Position numbers and translations under genes: made by a program. From positions 70,146 to 134,145 of the forward strand of contig NZ_MQTQ01000065.1 of NCBI RefSeq assembly GCF_020532805.1: DNA of 64,000 nucleotides, in the 5' to 3' direction. Under the pieces are notes generated by a model that did not search any database, had not been told where the DNA came from, and saw only the letters and a program-made list of their open reading frames with translations. This DNA comes from Arthrobacter sp. SO5 (GTDB lineage: Bacteria > Actinomycetota > Actinomycetes > Actinomycetales > Micrococcaceae). Numbering within the stretch: position 1 is the first letter of the stretch; each line of letters starts with the position of its first letter. Of the stretch, positions 3,145-14,092 are shown piece after piece.

Positions 3145-3930
3145 TTAGCGGCGGGCGGTGGCGGTGTAACGCCCGGCGGCGACGCTGACGTCCAGCGGCA
3201 GCCCGAAGGTCTCGCTCAGGTTGCCGGCGGTGAGGACGTCTTCGAGCGGGCCCTGGGCTACCACCCTGCCGTCCCGCATGAGCATCGCATGGGTGAATCC
3301 GGGCGGAACCTCTTCGAGGTGGTGCGTGACCAGCACGATCGCGGGGGCGTCCTCGTCGCGGGCGAGTTCGCTGAGCCGGTGTACGAGGTCCTCGCGGCCG
3401 CCGAGGTCCAGACCGGCGGCGGGTTCGTCGAGGAGCAGCAGCTCGGGGTCCGTCATGAGGGCGCGGGCGATCTGGACGCGTTTGCGCTCCCCCTCGGACA
3501 GCGACGCGAAGGGACGGTTGAGCAGCGGCCCCATGCCCCATTCATTGAGCAGGGCGAAGGCGCGGCGTTCGTCGTCCCTTTCGTAGCCCTCGCGCCAGCG
3601 GCCCGTGACACCGTAGGCGGCAGTGACCACGACGTTGAGGACCTTCTCGTGCTCGGGGATCTGGTTCGCCAGGGCGGCCGAGGACAGGCCGATCCGGGGC
3701 CGGAGTTCAAAGACGTCGACGGCGCCGAGGATTTCCTCCAGGATGCCTGCCATGCCGGACGTGGGGTGGATCCGTGCGGCGGCGACCTGCAGCAGAGTGG
3801 TCTTGCCGGCGCCGTTGGGTCCCAGGATCACCCAACGCTCGCCCTCTTTGACCTGCCAGTCCACTTTGTTCAGGAGGGTTTTAGCCCCTCGTACAACGCT
3901 GACGGCGGCCATTTCAAGAACATCACTCAT
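3145..3930 (-). CDS. stand-alone ABC transporter ATP-binding protein
   Basis: A 261-residue cytoplasmic ATPase with Walker A GPNGAGKTT at 37-45, signature LSEGERKRV, Walker B LLLLDEPAAGLD and the H-loop VTHHLEEV. The closest general type is the single-domain YlmA/ModF-like ATPase found without a dedicated permease; no ABC permease gene is adjacent, so the partner is unknown. The ATG at 3930 was chosen because it starts directly on the MSDVLEMAAVSV strand. The same frame is open 52 codons further upstream but that part is low-complexity and overlaps the serB promoter region. serB is transcribed divergently. Confidence 0.85.
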   Translation of the reverse strand: MSDVLEMAAVSVVRGAKTLLNKVDWQVKEGERWVILGPNGAGKTTLLQVAAARIHPTSGMAGILEEILGAVDVFELRPRIGLSSAALANQIPEHEKVLNVVVTAAYGVTGRWREGYERDDERRAFALLNEWGMGPLLNRPFASLSEGERKRVQIARALMTDPELLLLDEPAAGLDLGGREDLVHRLSELARDEDAPAIVLVTHHLEEVPPGFTHAMLMRDGRVVAQGPLEDVLTAGNLSETFGLPLDVSVAAGRYTATARR

Positions 3931-4071
3931 AGGAGTAGACACTAGGACAAAAAAGCTGACGACTGATAACCGGAACGGCAGCCCCGGGCAGCGTGGCGCC
4001 CGCCCGGGACCGGGGCGCCACCTTGGCGTCACCGGACTGCAACGAATTCGGGCCGGTATCGGCACGCTCGC

Positions 4072-4077
4072 TAGGAT
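4072..4077 (+). promoter_or_regulatory. serB -10 box (leaderless type)
   Basis: TAGGAT fits the TANNNT consensus and lies 7 nt before the serB ATG, so transcription would begin at or next to the start codon. No Shine-Dalgarno sequence is present. The -35 region is weak. Confidence 0.5.
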
Positions 4078-4084
4078 TACAGCC

Positions 4085-5014
4085 ATGAGTTTGAACGTGA
4101 CCGCAGTCAGCTATGCCCGCCAACTGTCCCAGCCCGAGGTTCAGCAGGTACGTGCGGTGCTGGCCGCGGCCGGCCTGGCGATGGACGCCGAATCCCGCGC
4201 GGGCGACGACCGCTTCGAGGTGTACACCGCGGACGGCACGCTGGAGGGCCTCCCCGGGGGCGCCGACGGCGACGCGGCAGGGCCTGACCGGCGTCGGGCA
4301 GTGGCGGGGCTGCGCCGGGCAGTGGCGGATCACGGCGTCGACGGCGTCGACACGGCGATCGTGCCGGGAACGCTCCGGAACGCGGCACGGAAATTCCTCA
4401 TCATGGATGTGGACTCCACGTTGATCCAGCAGGAGGTCATCGAGCTCCTGGCCGCCTACGCCGGCAAGCGCTCAGAGGTCGCCGCGGTCACGGAGGCCGC
4501 CATGCGCGGCGAACTGGACTTCGCCCAGAGCCTGCACGCCCGGGTCGCGGTGCTCGCCGGGCTGGGGTCCGACGTCGTCGATTCCGTCCGCGCCGAGGTC
4601 AGGCTCACTGCGGGGGCGGCGGAACTCGTGGCGGCATTCCAGGCCGCGGGCCACGCCGTGGCCGTGGTGTCCGGCGGCTTCAACCAGATCCTCCGTCCGA
4701 TCGCGGCGGACCTGGGCCTGGACTACTGGATCGCCAACGAGCTTGAAATCGCCGACGGGGTGCTGACCGGAAAGGTCATCGGCGAGGTGATCGACCGGGC
4801 AGCCAAGGAAAAGTACCTGCGCGAGTGGGCGGCAAAGGAGGGCATCCCGATGGAGCACACTATTGCCGTCGGCGACGGCGCCAACGACCTGGACATGCTG
4901 GGCGCCGCCGGGCTCGGCATCGCCTTCAACGCCAAGCCGGCCGTCCGCGCCGCCGCTGACGCTGCGGTTAACCTGCCGTACCTGGACGCCGTCCGTCACA
5001 TCGCCGGAGTCTGA
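4085..5014 (+). CDS. serB: phosphoserine phosphatase
   Basis: Dephosphorylates L-3-phosphoserine to serine, the last step of serine synthesis. The 309-residue protein has the HAD-fold motifs: DVDST at 108-112 (nucleophile D108 and acid/base D110), VVSGGFNQI for motif II, the lysine in the AAKEKYLREW segment, and GDGANDLDML for motif III. The N-terminal 100 residues form a degenerate ACT-like region, shorter than the double-ACT form of mycobacteria. The ATG at 4085 sits 7 nt after a TAGGAT box. The upstream gene is divergent. The stop codon is followed by three 17-bp tandem repeats and then a strong terminator. Confidence 0.92.
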   Translation: MSLNVTAVSYARQLSQPEVQQVRAVLAAAGLAMDAESRAGDDRFEVYTADGTLEGLPGGADGDAAGPDRRRAVAGLRRAVADHGVDGVDTAIVPGTLRNAARKFLIMDVDSTLIQQEVIELLAAYAGKRSEVAAVTEAAMRGELDFAQSLHARVAVLAGLGSDVVDSVRAEVRLTAGAAELVAAFQAAGHAVAVVSGGFNQILRPIAADLGLDYWIANELEIADGVLTGKVIGEVIDRAAKEKYLREWAAKEGIPMEHTIAVGDGANDLDMLGAAGLGIAFNAKPAVRAAADAAVNLPYLDAVRHIAGV

Positions 5015-5023
5015 GGCTGGACT

Positions 5024-5074
5024 GGCAACACGGAACAACTGGTAACACGGAACAGCAGGCAACACGGAACAACA
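5024..5074 (+). repeat. three tandem 17-bp repeats after serB
   Basis: Three consecutive 17-bp units start at 5024, 5041 and 5058. Each contains AACACGGAACA; they differ at the third base and in the last three bases. They begin 9 bp after the serB stop and end at the terminator. No coding frame uses them. Confidence 0.9.
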
Positions 5075-5076
5075 GC

Positions 5077-5105
5077 GAAGGCCGGGGCGGTTTGCCCCGG
5101 CCTTC
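5077..5105. terminator. terminator between serB and the convergent SDR gene
   Basis: Perfect 12-bp stem GAAGGCCGGGGC with a 5-nt loop (GGTTT). It can serve both convergent genes. The plus strand is not followed by a long T tract. Confidence 0.8.
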
Positions 5106-5133
5106 CCTCACATTGCGCCGAAGCGGCTGATGC

Positions 5134-5886
5134 TTAGCTATTGCTCTTGTCGAAGTAGTCGGAGCCGCCCACGTACTCTGTGTGGCCGGCTTCGACGTCG
5201 GCCGTGACCATTTTGGCGACCTCTGCGGCAAACTCGGTGACCGAGTAGAGCCTGCCGGCCTCGGCGCGGCGTGCCTCGATGGCGCCCGGGTTGGAGCGGT
5301 CCAGCAGGGTGGCCGTGACCGTGCCCTCGATCATGTCGCCGGAGACGACGACGAGCGAGATGCCCTTCTCGGCGAGGTTCGGAACGAGTTCGCGGAGGGC
5401 GTCCTCGCCGGCGCGCTTGCTGCGGGCCACCGGCTCATAGTCCGGCATGGTGGGCACAGTGTCGATGAAGTGGGCCTGGTGGCTCGTCACGAAGACCACG
5501 CGGGACCCCTCGGGCATGAGCGGCACCGCGGCGTTGAGCATGTTCACTTGGGCGTCCCGGTTGAGCTTGAGCGCATAGCCCGCTTCCATCCCCGATTCCA
5601 TCCCGCCGGAGGCGTTGAGCACCAGGATATCGAGGGAGCCGAAGTTTTCCATGGCAGCGCTGGCAAGGGCCTGCACGCCTTCCTGGGTGGTGAGGTCGGC
5701 GCCCACGGCGGCGGCACGGCCGCCGGCGGCCTCGATCTCCGAGACCACCTTGTTGGCACGCGGTGCCTTCTGGCGGTAGTTCACGACGACGGCTGCGCCC
5801 TCGGCGGCGAGGAACTTGGCGACTTCGGCGCCGATGCCCCTCGATGAACCGGTCACGATTGCGGTCTTGTTATCCAGCAGTCCCAT
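5134..5886 (-). CDS. SDR family oxidoreductase with atypical active site
   Basis: A 250-residue short-chain dehydrogenase. The cofactor motif TGSSRGIG occupies residues 12-19 and the NAS(G) motif follows at 91-94. The catalytic serine is probably S135 (VTSHQ). The usual YxxxK pair is altered: K157 lies in ARSKRAGEDAL, but the residue four before it is V153 and the nearest tyrosine is Y150, seven before the lysine. Either Y150 acts from a longer loop or the enzyme is not a classical alcohol dehydrogenase. Substrate unknown. ATG at 5886 has a GGAG ribosome site 5-8 nt upstream; an upstream GTG frame adds nine unlikely residues. Confidence 0.85.
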   Translation of the reverse strand: MGLLDNKTAIVTGSSRGIGAEVAKFLAAEGAAVVVNYRQKAPRANKVVSEIEAAGGRAAAVGADLTTQEGVQALASAAMENFGSLDILVLNASGGMESGMEAGYALKLNRDAQVNMLNAAVPLMPEGSRVVFVTSHQAHFIDTVPTMPDYEPVARSKRAGEDALRELVPNLAEKGISLVVVSGDMIEGTVTATLLDRSNPGAIEARRAEAGRLYSVTEFAAEVAKMVTADVEAGHTEYVGGSDYFDKSNS

Positions 5887-11279: not shown

Positions 11280-12004
11280 GCATCATCCTGGACCGGGTGG
11301 CGGTGCGGGTCGCGGTGGATGGCCGTCCGGCCCCCAAGATCCTGCTCGATGAGCTGTCGCTTGAGCTCGTGGAGCGGCGGATCGGTGTCATCGGCGCCAA
11401 CGGGTCGGGCAAGTCCACGCTGCTCCGGCTTCTCAACGGGCTGGTTGCCCCCAGCAGCGGCAACGTCACGGTGGCTGGCTACGACACGGTCCGGAGCGTG
11501 CGGGACGTCCGGCGCCGGGTCGGGTTTGTCTTCACCGATCCGCTCTCCCAGTTGGTGATGCCCACCGGCCGGGAGGACGTGGAGCTGTCCCTGCGGCGCT
11601 CGGTGCGCAATCCCCGGGAACGCCGTGCGCTCGCGGAGTCGGCCCTGGCGCGGTTCGGGCTGCTGGCCCTGGCGGACCAGAGCATCTACGAGCTGTCCGG
11701 CGGCGAACGCCAGCTCCTGGCCCTCGCGGCGGTCCTGGCGGTGGACCCCGCGGTGCTGGTGCTCGACGAGCCGTCCACCCTGCTGGACCTGCGCAACCGC
11801 GAACTGCTCCGGCGGACCATCGCCGGGCTGAGCCAGCAGGTCATCCTCTCCACCCACGACCTCGAGCTGGCCCGGGACATGGACCGGGTCCTGGTGCTCG
11901 ATGCGGGCAAGGTGGTGTTCGACGGCGCCCCGGACGACGCCGTCGCCCAGTACCGCGCGCTGTGCACTGCGGGATTGGAGCTGCCGGCCGGGGAGCAGAA
12001 ATGA
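11276..12004 (+). CDS. bioM: biotin ECF transporter ATPase BioM
   Basis: A 242-residue ABC ATPase that energises biotin uptake with BioY and BioN. Walker A is GANGSGKST, the Q-loop lies in the FVFTDPLSQLVMP segment typical of ECF A components, the signature is LSGGERQLLAL, Walker B is VLVLDEPSTLLD and the switch histidine is in STHDLEL. Size and Q-helix match the CbiO/EcfA/BioM family. GTG start overlaps the bioY stop; the TGA overlaps the bioN ATG (ATGA). Confidence 0.93.
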   Translation: MSIILDRVAVRVAVDGRPAPKILLDELSLELVERRIGVIGANGSGKSTLLRLLNGLVAPSSGNVTVAGYDTVRSVRDVRRRVGFVFTDPLSQLVMPTGREDVELSLRRSVRNPRERRALAESALARFGLLALADQSIYELSGGERQLLALAAVLAVDPAVLVLDEPSTLLDLRNRELLRRTIAGLSQQVILSTHDLELARDMDRVLVLDAGKVVFDGAPDDAVAQYRALCTAGLELPAGEQK

Positions 12005-12633
12005 GCGGGCATGGTTTCCTGCTCGCCAACTATGTCCCGGGGGGATCGCCGGTCCACCGCTCGCCGCTGTGGCTGAAGTTCCTGCTGGTCCTGGCCTGCG
12101 GGATGGCGTCCTTCCTCATCGCCGACTGGGCGGTGTCCGCCTGCGTGCTGGTGCTCCTGTGCGGCGTGTTCCTCCTCAGCGGGGCCGGCGCCGCGCGCCT
12201 GGTCCGGGCCGTGCGTCCTGTCCTGCCGGTCCTCGCGGCGATCGGCCTGTTTCAGTGGTGGCAGCTCGGCGGCCCGACGGCGGCGCGGATCGTACTCAAC
12301 GTGCTCGTCTGCGTCGTTGCCGCCTCGATCCTGACGGCGACGACCCCTGTACAGGAACTCCTGGACGGGGTGGCCTCCCTGGCCCGTCCATTCCGGCGCT
12401 TCGGCGCGGACCCCGAACGCTTCGCCCTGACCATCGCCATCATGCTGCGCAGCATCCCGTTCGTCGCCGGAGCCTACGCCGACGTCCGGAACTCCGCCCG
12501 TGCCCGCGGGCTGGAGCGGAACCCCAGGGCCCTCGTGCTGCCCGTATTCATCACGTCCGTGGCCTTCGCCCGCCAAACCGGCGAGGCCCTGGCCGCACGG
12601 GGGCTGGGCGACGCCGAGGACCAGGGCTCCTAA
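12001..12633 (+). CDS. bioN: biotin ECF transporter transmembrane protein BioN
   Basis: A 210-residue membrane protein, the T component that couples BioM to BioY. Four to five hydrophobic helices are visible. The coupling helix carries the conserved Ala-Arg-Gly type motif in NSARARGLERNPR near residue 165, with a second ALAARGLGD near the end. ATG at 12001 overlaps the bioM stop. It is the last gene of the operon and is followed by the tandem repeat element. Confidence 0.92.
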   Translation: MSGHGFLLANYVPGGSPVHRSPLWLKFLLVLACGMASFLIADWAVSACVLVLLCGVFLLSGAGAARLVRAVRPVLPVLAAIGLFQWWQLGGPTAARIVLNVLVCVVAASILTATTPVQELLDGVASLARPFRRFGADPERFALTIAIMLRSIPFVAGAYADVRNSARARGLERNPRALVLPVFITSVAFARQTGEALAARGLGDAEDQGS

Positions 12634-12678
12634 CCCTCCCCTCCTCCTGCGGGACATGCGCTCCGCTTAGCCCTGCCT

Positions 12679-12769
12679 GGGGACATGCGCTCCCCTTCCC
12701 GCGGCCACTGGACATAGACCCACTGTGCCCATTGCCTGGCCCAAGGACTGGGCATGTCCCGCGGAACCT
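12679..12769. repeat. MITE-like repeat, copy A
   Basis: A 91-bp unit starting GGGGACATG and ending just after GGGCATGTCCC, so the ends are inverted repeats. It is about 91% identical to copy B (8 mismatches, no gaps). Further partial similarity extends upstream (TTAGCCC motif at 12667), and a third fragment GGGACATGCGCTCC lies at 12651. Confidence 0.8.
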
Positions 12770-12803
12770 CCTTAGGCACCTGCCCAGCCTTTAGCCCCTG
12801 CCC

Positions 12804-12894
12804 GGGGACATGTGCCGCCCTCCCCGCGGCCACTGGACATAGACCCACTATGCCCATTGCCTGGCCCGAGCACTGGGCATGTCCCCCGGAACCT
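12804..12894. repeat. MITE-like repeat, copy B
   Basis: Second 91-bp copy, 125 bp downstream of copy A. Its right end overlaps the last two bases of the thiolase stop codon. The core around TGGACATAGACCCACT is nearly identical between the two copies. No open frame is conserved through it. Confidence 0.8.
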
Positions 12895-14092
12895 AGGGGA
12901 ACGTGCGGTATTCCAGCAGCGCGGCGGTGCCCATGCCGCCGGCGATGCTGATCAGGGCCAGTGCCAGCAGTCCATCCGAGCCGCGGCGGCGGGCCTGGGC
13001 CAGCAGCCGCGTGACCAGCACCGCGCCCGAGGCGCCGTAGGCGTGCCCCAACGCCAGGGCCCCGCCGTCGAGGTTTGCTCGGTCCGGGTCAATGGCCAGC
13101 AGGTCCAGGCAGGCAAGGGCCTGGGCAGCGAACGCCTCGTTGAACTCGACCAGGCCCAGCTCGCCGCCCGTGAGACCCACAGCGTCCAGCAGCCTCCGCC
13201 CGGCCGCCGCCGCGCCGATGCCGAGGAATTGCGGGTCCACGCCGGCGGTGTCGGTACCGAGCACCAGCAGGCCGTCGCGGGCGCCCAGTTCGCGCGCCCG
13301 CTGCACGGAGGTGATCACGACGGCGGCCGCACCGTCCGCGTCGAAGCAGGAGTTCCCGGCGGTGACGGTGCCCCCAGCGGCAAACGCCGGCGGGAACCGC
13401 GCCAGCACAGCCCCGGACAGCCCCGGCCGCGGCCCGTCATCCGCCGTCACGGGCCTGTTCGGGCCCGCCAACGGGACCAGTTCGCCGTCGAACAGCCCGG
13501 CAGCGGCGGCGGCAAGGGCCCTGCAGTGGCTGCGCAGCGCAAAGGCGTCCTGCCGTTCCCGGGCGATGCCGTAGCGGGCGGCCACGTTTTCGGCGGCCAC
13601 CCCCATGTCCGGATCCCCGTGGCCCGGCGGCGCGAACTGCGCCCGCGCGAAGAACTCGGGATCGCCCTGGGAACCGGGGTGGGCGCGGAGCGGCGCCGTG
13701 CTGATGCTTTCCACGCCGCCGGCGAGGTACACGCTGCCCCCGATGCCTCCGCCGGCTGCCACGAGTCGGGAAGCGAGCACGATCGCGTCCAGTCCGGAAC
13801 CGCACTGCCGGTCCACCGTGAGTCCGGGGACGCTGACCGGCAGCCCGGCCTCCAGTGCCGAGAGCCGGGCCACGTTCCCGCCGCCGCCCACGGCGTTACC
13901 GATCACCACGTCCGCCACCGACCCGGGTGCCACACCGGCATCGTCGAGGAGGCTGCGGAGCACCGGTGCCAGGAGCTCGTGGGCACGCAGGGTCTTCAGC
14001 GCCCCGTTGGAGCGGCAGATGGGGGTGCGGCGGGCGGCGATGATGACCGGCTGCCGGTCCTCCGGCAGGGTCCCGGTCCGGAGCTCAGCCAA
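12893..14092 (-). CDS. thiolase family acyltransferase with Cys-to-Ser change
   Basis: A 399-residue thiolase, which would cleave 3-ketoacyl-CoA or condense acyl-CoAs. The nucleophile C97 is in DRQCGSGLDAI, and the NEAFAAQAL and GGALALGHAYGASGA motifs are intact. The second active-site cysteine of the canonical CxGGGxG loop is a serine (S382 in SIAGGMG), so the reaction may differ or be slower. TTG start; the gene overlaps the stop of the upstream acyl-CoA synthetase gene by 8 bp, so the pair is translationally coupled and probably handles the same acyl chain. Confidence 0.85.
   Translation of the reverse strand: MAELRTGTLPEDRQPVIIAARRTPICRSNGALKTLRAHELLAPVLRSLLDDAGVAPGSVADVVIGNAVGGGGNVARLSALEAGLPVSVPGLTVDRQCGSGLDAIVLASRLVAAGGGIGGSVYLAGGVESISTAPLRAHPGSQGDPEFFARAQFAPPGHGDPDMGVAAENVAARYGIARERQDAFALRSHCRALAAAAAGLFDGELVPLAGPNRPVTADDGPRPGLSGAVLARFPPAFAAGGTVTAGNSCFDADGAAAVVITSVQRARELGARDGLLVLGTDTAGVDPQFLGIGAAAAGRRLLDAVGLTGGELGLVEFNEAFAAQALACLDLLAIDPDRANLDGGALALGHAYGASGAVLVTRLLAQARRRGSDGLLALALISIAGGMGTAALLEYRTFP

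Follow-up and report, generated by a model that had tools for sequence, protein, structure and literature searches.

Comparison of a 79-bp intergenic repeat within the genome of Arthrobacter sp. SO5 and across its relatives suggests, with roughly even confidence, that it is an ancient, stably inherited element read as double-stranded DNA, which may serve as a protein-bound boundary between transcription units. Two copies lie in the window, i.e., the 64,000-nucleotide stretch of DNA analyzed here. The fixed geometry of the element, its constrained boxes, its old shared positions, and its gene context fit this reading; the last step, from site to boundary, is one that we infer.

Repeat units and box architecture

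The window contains tandem 99-nt repeats at 12671–12769 and 12796–12894 that share 91% identity, with GGGGACATG and GCATGTCCC near the ends of both. The initial annotation described two 91-bp copies, about 91% identical and 125 bp apart; this identity holds, but the units measure 99 nt and 125 bp is their start-to-start distance, the gap between them being 26 bp. The sharper repeat unit is 79 bp long (copies A and B below), and the annotated third fragment with the same left end was found at 12651 as a single box, GGGACATGCGCTCC. A profile built from 28 own-genome copies, including A and B, matched the window at A and B only, and gave no match in a mononucleotide-shuffled window (n = 1). The features are as follows, with box positions, which carry no strand, taken from an ungapped look at the copies:

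12001–12633, + strand: upstream convergent gene, CbiQ/EcfT family, bioN-like
12651–12679, + strand: one-box fragment GGGACATGCGCTCC, shared left end
12671–12769, + strand: tandem repeat unit 1, 99 nt
12681–12759, + strand: element copy A, 79-bp core, from the profile of 28 copies
12681–12690: copy A left outer box GGACATGCGC
12709–12716: copy A inner left box TGGACATA
12724–12731: copy A inner right box TGTGCCCA
12750–12759: copy A right outer box GGGCATGTCC
12796–12894, + strand: tandem repeat unit 2, 99 nt, 91% identical
12806–12884, + strand: element copy B, 79-bp core separated by 8 bp from the thiolase stop, from the profile of 28 copies
12806–12815: copy B left outer box
12834–12841: copy B inner left box
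12849–12856: copy B inner right box
12875–12884: copy B right outer box
12893–14092, − strand: convergent thiolase gene

As annotated, the repeat region (12634–12892) is flanked by convergent bioN-like EcfT and thiolase genes. The left neighbor encodes a CbiQ/EcfT-family protein, for which the identity bioN is plausible because it follows a BioY protein and an ABC ATPase. The region also proved to be non-coding: despite mechanical open reading frames that run across it, our home-made gene caller, which ignores RNA genes, overextends some starts, and called a purD-like site intragenic, placed no gene between 12633 and 12893.

Each copy carries four boxes at fixed positions between variable spacers, i.e., GGRCATGYCC at both ends and TGGACATA/TATGYCCA inside. 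In an ungapped scan of the 28 copies, which required the 79-bp length, the boxes occupied positions 1–10, 29–36, 44–51, and 70–79 of the unit. A half-site scan of 91 loci that imposed no length gave inverted peaks at 79 (74 cases), 50 (118), and 21 (41), together with a direct-orientation peak at 29 (152); spacings of 78, 80, and 81 around the first inverted peak occurred in 4, 0, and 7 cases, respectively. The layout is mirror-symmetric, and the inverted ends recognized at the outset are present at both element ends (GGACATGCCC/GGGCATGTCC). Each outer box is a near-palindromic decamer, and the two inner boxes are inverted with 7 bases between them, so that the element resembles three dimer-binding sites held in rigid phase. 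A variant from another genus (G106; L081, positions 1043–1121) has, by eye, a core that is perfectly palindromic over about 14 bp per arm.

Copies, bearers, and shared positions

When the 99-bp unit was searched by BLAST against the own genome (3.83 Mb, 104 contigs), it gave 59 matches at E ≤ 10, with 24 below 0.001, some of which are one place on both strands; the sequence-only model R1 returned 155 matches at E ≤ 1. Most copies match on both strands because the element is palindromic. Counted from the R1 matches, about 57 distinct places reach at least 35 bits, in 38 clusters, and three pairs of clusters are, judged by shared orthologs, the two contig ends of one site each. The repeat is therefore dispersed, as had been suspected, and not a local duplication only. 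Ten contig ends of the own genome, G000 (C67, C21, C29, C33, C94, C77, C95, C17, C72, and C50) all lie at most 50 bp from an element; arrays thus seem to break assemblies, and hence copy number may be underestimated.

The copies are mostly intergenic, with 2 of 53 own-genome copies overlapping a called ORF. The 25 own sites with both neighbors comprise 13 convergent, nine co-directional, and one divergent site and two that overlap a called ORF, and 14 more copies are too close to contig ends for context classification. Convergent pairs make up 13 of the 23 classified own sites, compared to 7 of 56 window junctions; in a sample from the bearer G010 they account for 46 of 300 junctions overall and 21 of 194 among gaps of at least 60 bp. 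The divergent tRNA-Ser/ffs site described below is absent from this count because the gene caller is blind to RNA genes. No copies fell in 20 evenly spaced 20-kb stretches of G010, which were meant as an unbiased context sample; most gene junctions therefore do without the element, and its context was derived from the sites that were found. Positions upstream of a gene also occur, i.e., at ffs and at a purD-like gene (named by our own reading).

With R1 at E 0.01, 19 of 79 genomes matched (own included), 15 with at least 29 matches and four with 1–3. All 19 are among the 49 genomes of the own genus, some of which are without the element, and none of the 30 genomes from other genera of the order matched at this threshold. 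Wider searches, filtered more strictly than this one, matched 20 of 395 genomes across the family at 1e-8, one being in another genus with 3 matches, and 4 of 396 across the order, all of the own genus. By matching named loci, the bearers fall among Arthrobacter and Pseudarthrobacter and include A. humicola 53 and A. oryzae DSM 25586; among 80 named bioN loci, there were strong matches in 17 and a weak fragment in Leaf69 (L122). Counts of GGRCATGYCC, which are independent of R1, ranged from 97 to 247 in 27 bearers versus 51 to 89 in 19 non-bearers. A tree of thiolase and rsmD places bearers on both sides of non-bearers, this being one quick, unrooted FastTree of two genes in which one of the key nodes has a support of 0.69; we refer to the larger group of bearers as clade I and to the second as clade II.

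Many positions are shared between species. A copy was detected by profile scan in 49 of 51 loci from the model listings. The site is also element-bearing in the own genome for 34 of 40 clade-I loci and for 2 of 9 loci outside clade I, in a comparison where loci were chosen as top-scoring and some sites were counted twice. One such position lies between divergent genes for tRNA-Ser and the 4.5S RNA (ffs) (L272, 2840–3249; L009; L074). Among the 15 clade-I genomes with a copy there, 12 have the nearest one 63–65 bp upstream of ffs, and a further two clade-I genomes carry boxes without a full copy; five of nine clade-II genomes have a copy at ffs, compared to none of the eight non-bearers. The best-scoring orientation is the same in 20 of 20 genomes, and the approximately 27 bp between box and ffs promoter vary in sequence (by eye). 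Three further observations were made: L279 has two tRNA genes of equal score (3677–3749 and 3886–3958), separated by 136 bp, close to an element array; the homology that G046 shares with G163 begins exactly at the element (L273 from 3013, L280 from 3097), a possible synteny breakpoint; and L141 contains, at about 4000–5300, an N stretch inside the bioN array that starts with a reading frame which, by eye, is possibly transposase-like.

Constraint, mobility, and RNA folding

Boxes and spacers differ in conservation at two orthologous sites. Between bioN and thiolase, the copy nearest thiolase in 18 of the 22 distinct species with a scored copy (153 pairs) gave mean identities of 0.855 for boxes, 0.572 for spacers, and 0.542 for four-fold sites of thiolase; the four species dropped have their copy at least 60 bp from the thiolase stop, and all 22 species together (231 pairs) gave 0.863 and 0.570 for boxes and spacers. 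At ffs, identities in 13 of the 15 genomes with a copy (78 pairs; two dropped, with the copy further than 75 bp) were 0.879 for boxes, 0.580 for spacers, and 0.631 for dnaX four-fold sites. Box identity exceeded spacer identity in 135 of 136 pairs from 17 genomes, which are not independent, and in six of seven disjoint pairs, the exception being G032/G047 (spacer 0.86, box 0.83). Copies were detected via their boxes, yet the model matched in 18 of 18 clade-I bioN genomes (G454 partially). Hence the boxes look constrained in place at both sites, although their likeness could also result from gene conversion among copies. Spacer identity is higher between orthologs (0.570) than between dispersed paralogs within the own genome (0.483), which argues for descent in place and limited conversion.

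Clean empty sites occur in relatives at both rsmD and bioN. The gap from bioN to thiolase has no box in 58 of the 80 named loci (0–103 bp in 55 of these, 838–1545 bp in three), has boxes in 14, and is unreadable across in eight. At rsmD, the element is present in 3 of 30 genomes (G000, G334, and G446), the left gene is unreadable in two others, and G032 has an apparent remnant; these absences and the apparent remnant indicate that single sites are dispensable. The element was thus gained at, or cleanly lost from, exact places. In several of the element-free rsmD relatives inspected, the two stop codons overlap in CTAG or TTAG, and the G000 array has CTAG on either side. Insertion of the IS5 type at CTAG was considered and dropped, as no inverted ends were seen by eye beside CTAG.

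One alternative is that the element is an old non-autonomous mobile repeat, i.e., a MITE or an orphan REP-like sequence, that has since lost its transposase and whose boxes are its recognition ends. The inverted ends, dispersed copies, clean empty sites, and bearers on both sides of non-bearers in the tree agree with this, as does a 30-bp direct repeat around the two-copy rsmD array of G446 (L246), alongside the paired CTAG in G000. When flanks of 90 arrays were scored for direct repeats against 893 mismatched pairs, 3 arrays versus 5 controls scored at least 14, one of the three (L103) being box sequence; at a score of at least 11 the counts were control-like (8 versus 56; mean scores 8.57 versus 8.26). 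Target-site duplication among these arrays thus amounts to one clear 30-bp case and a small tail excess. The age of the copies speaks against such a relic: the best dispersed partner within a genome has a median identity of 73% and reaches 90% for 4 of 124 copies, compared to 89% and 37 of 88 for the best tandem neighbor, in a set of nearly all own copies and a subset of loci for other genomes. Dispersed copies are therefore old and only tandem neighbors, whose number varies between species, are young. The transposase search, which covered Y1_Tnp (PF01797), detected no RAYT gene in the own genome and was positive in 1 of 30 genomes tested, the bearer G032, whose two Y1_Tnp genes (L063 and L064) have no element in either locus. 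Phage and plasmid records gave no blastn match at the sensitivity used and viral contigs none to one strict pattern; moreover, a selfish remnant should not retain its boxes in place. We consider this alternative rather doubtful. Because many sites are common to species, dispersed copies are old, and the own genome is without RAYT, the element does not look currently mobile; the initial annotation of a non-autonomous mobile repeat stands for its dispersal and inverted ends, but not for recent mobility.

That annotation also proposed that the repeat acts as a terminator. A bidirectional terminator or 3′-end stabilizer that works as an RNA hairpin would suit the frequent convergent contexts, and copies A and B do fold more stably than shuffled sequence on either strand (z −1.9 to −3.4). 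Box pairs form in the RNA fold, but the 89.3% of cells paired across the 28 copies compares to 89.9% in shuffles, i.e., there is no overall arm covariation, and 13 of the 28 leave one inner pair unpaired. The consensus fold has 14 pairs, two of them changed on both sides, with a covariation term of −0.03. Among 126 clade-I copies, 1 of 39 position pairs lies above shuffles (20 with 60, z 3.7) and two lie clearly below, so neither set keeps the hairpin overall by compensatory change. No terminator-like site (GC-rich hairpin followed by a T-run) was found in 12501–13000, no Rfam family matched the window at its gathering threshold, and some copies lie upstream of genes. Given arms that lack overall covariation and no T-run after the element, an RNA terminator is not supported, and a function as RNA hairpin seems improbable. 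Neutral old relics, kept only by tandem duplication and gene conversion, are quite improbable as well: the close likeness of tandem neighbors and the absence of single sites would agree with them, but not conserved boxes with spacers near the silent-site level in the same orthologs, nor conversion as limited as the spacers suggest. Overall, the initial annotation was right about dispersal but only in part about mechanism.

Proposed function and known systems

In the preferred reading, a protein-bound DNA boundary, a candidate protein present in bearers would bind the boxes as dimers, with the outer palindromic decamers and the inner inverted pair as its targets. The bound array would then act as a boundary between transcription units, e.g., as a nucleoid anchor or as a roadblock that stops read-through, and lineages that lose the protein partner would also lose the element sites. 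Its symmetry makes the element independent of orientation, which suits convergent gene ends as well as divergent regions like tRNA-Ser/ffs. It is a tentative extension, possible though less than probable, that this constitutes a genus-specific boundary system of about 35 intergenic stations in this genome, with three dimer sites each, in which the candidate protein insulates units and was lost with all stations in sister lineages.

A literature search, judged by titles and the opening lines of abstracts, turned up no paper on this repeat; a table row in PMC12306157 lists REP counts for Arthrobacter livingstonensis. Palindromic repeats between genes are usually regarded as selfish DNA or as hairpins in RNA. 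In the present case, comparison of orthologous copies tells constrained boxes apart from freely changing spacers, which makes function directly testable; relatives that differ in whether a given gene pair has the element are natural experiments, and the 79-bp element could be used as a single probe to fish for its cognate protein.

Several known systems resemble the element in part. REP/REPIN sequences, which are associated with RAYT transposases, are likewise short, palindromic, intergenic, present in many copies, often at 3′ ends, and clustered in tandem; in contrast to them, the element has a fixed 79-bp four-box layout, no RAYT in the own genome, no overall hairpin covariation, and many sites common to species. 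The BIME clusters of Escherichia coli, which bind gyrase or IHF, also form arrays between genes, many at 3′ ends, and would share with the element a reading at the DNA level; however, the element is of other sequence and lineage, and its binding protein is putative. ERIC/IRU-type elements are, like ours, intergenic palindromes of about 100 bp without a known transposase, a likeness by description, and the Arthrobacter element is set apart by constrained boxes and spacers near the silent-site level. Finally, parS and matS are conserved palindromic sites for nucleoid proteins dispersed over the chromosome, as the element is a set of conserved palindromic DNA sites so dispersed, although the latter is larger, composite, arranged in tandem arrays, and limited to the genus.
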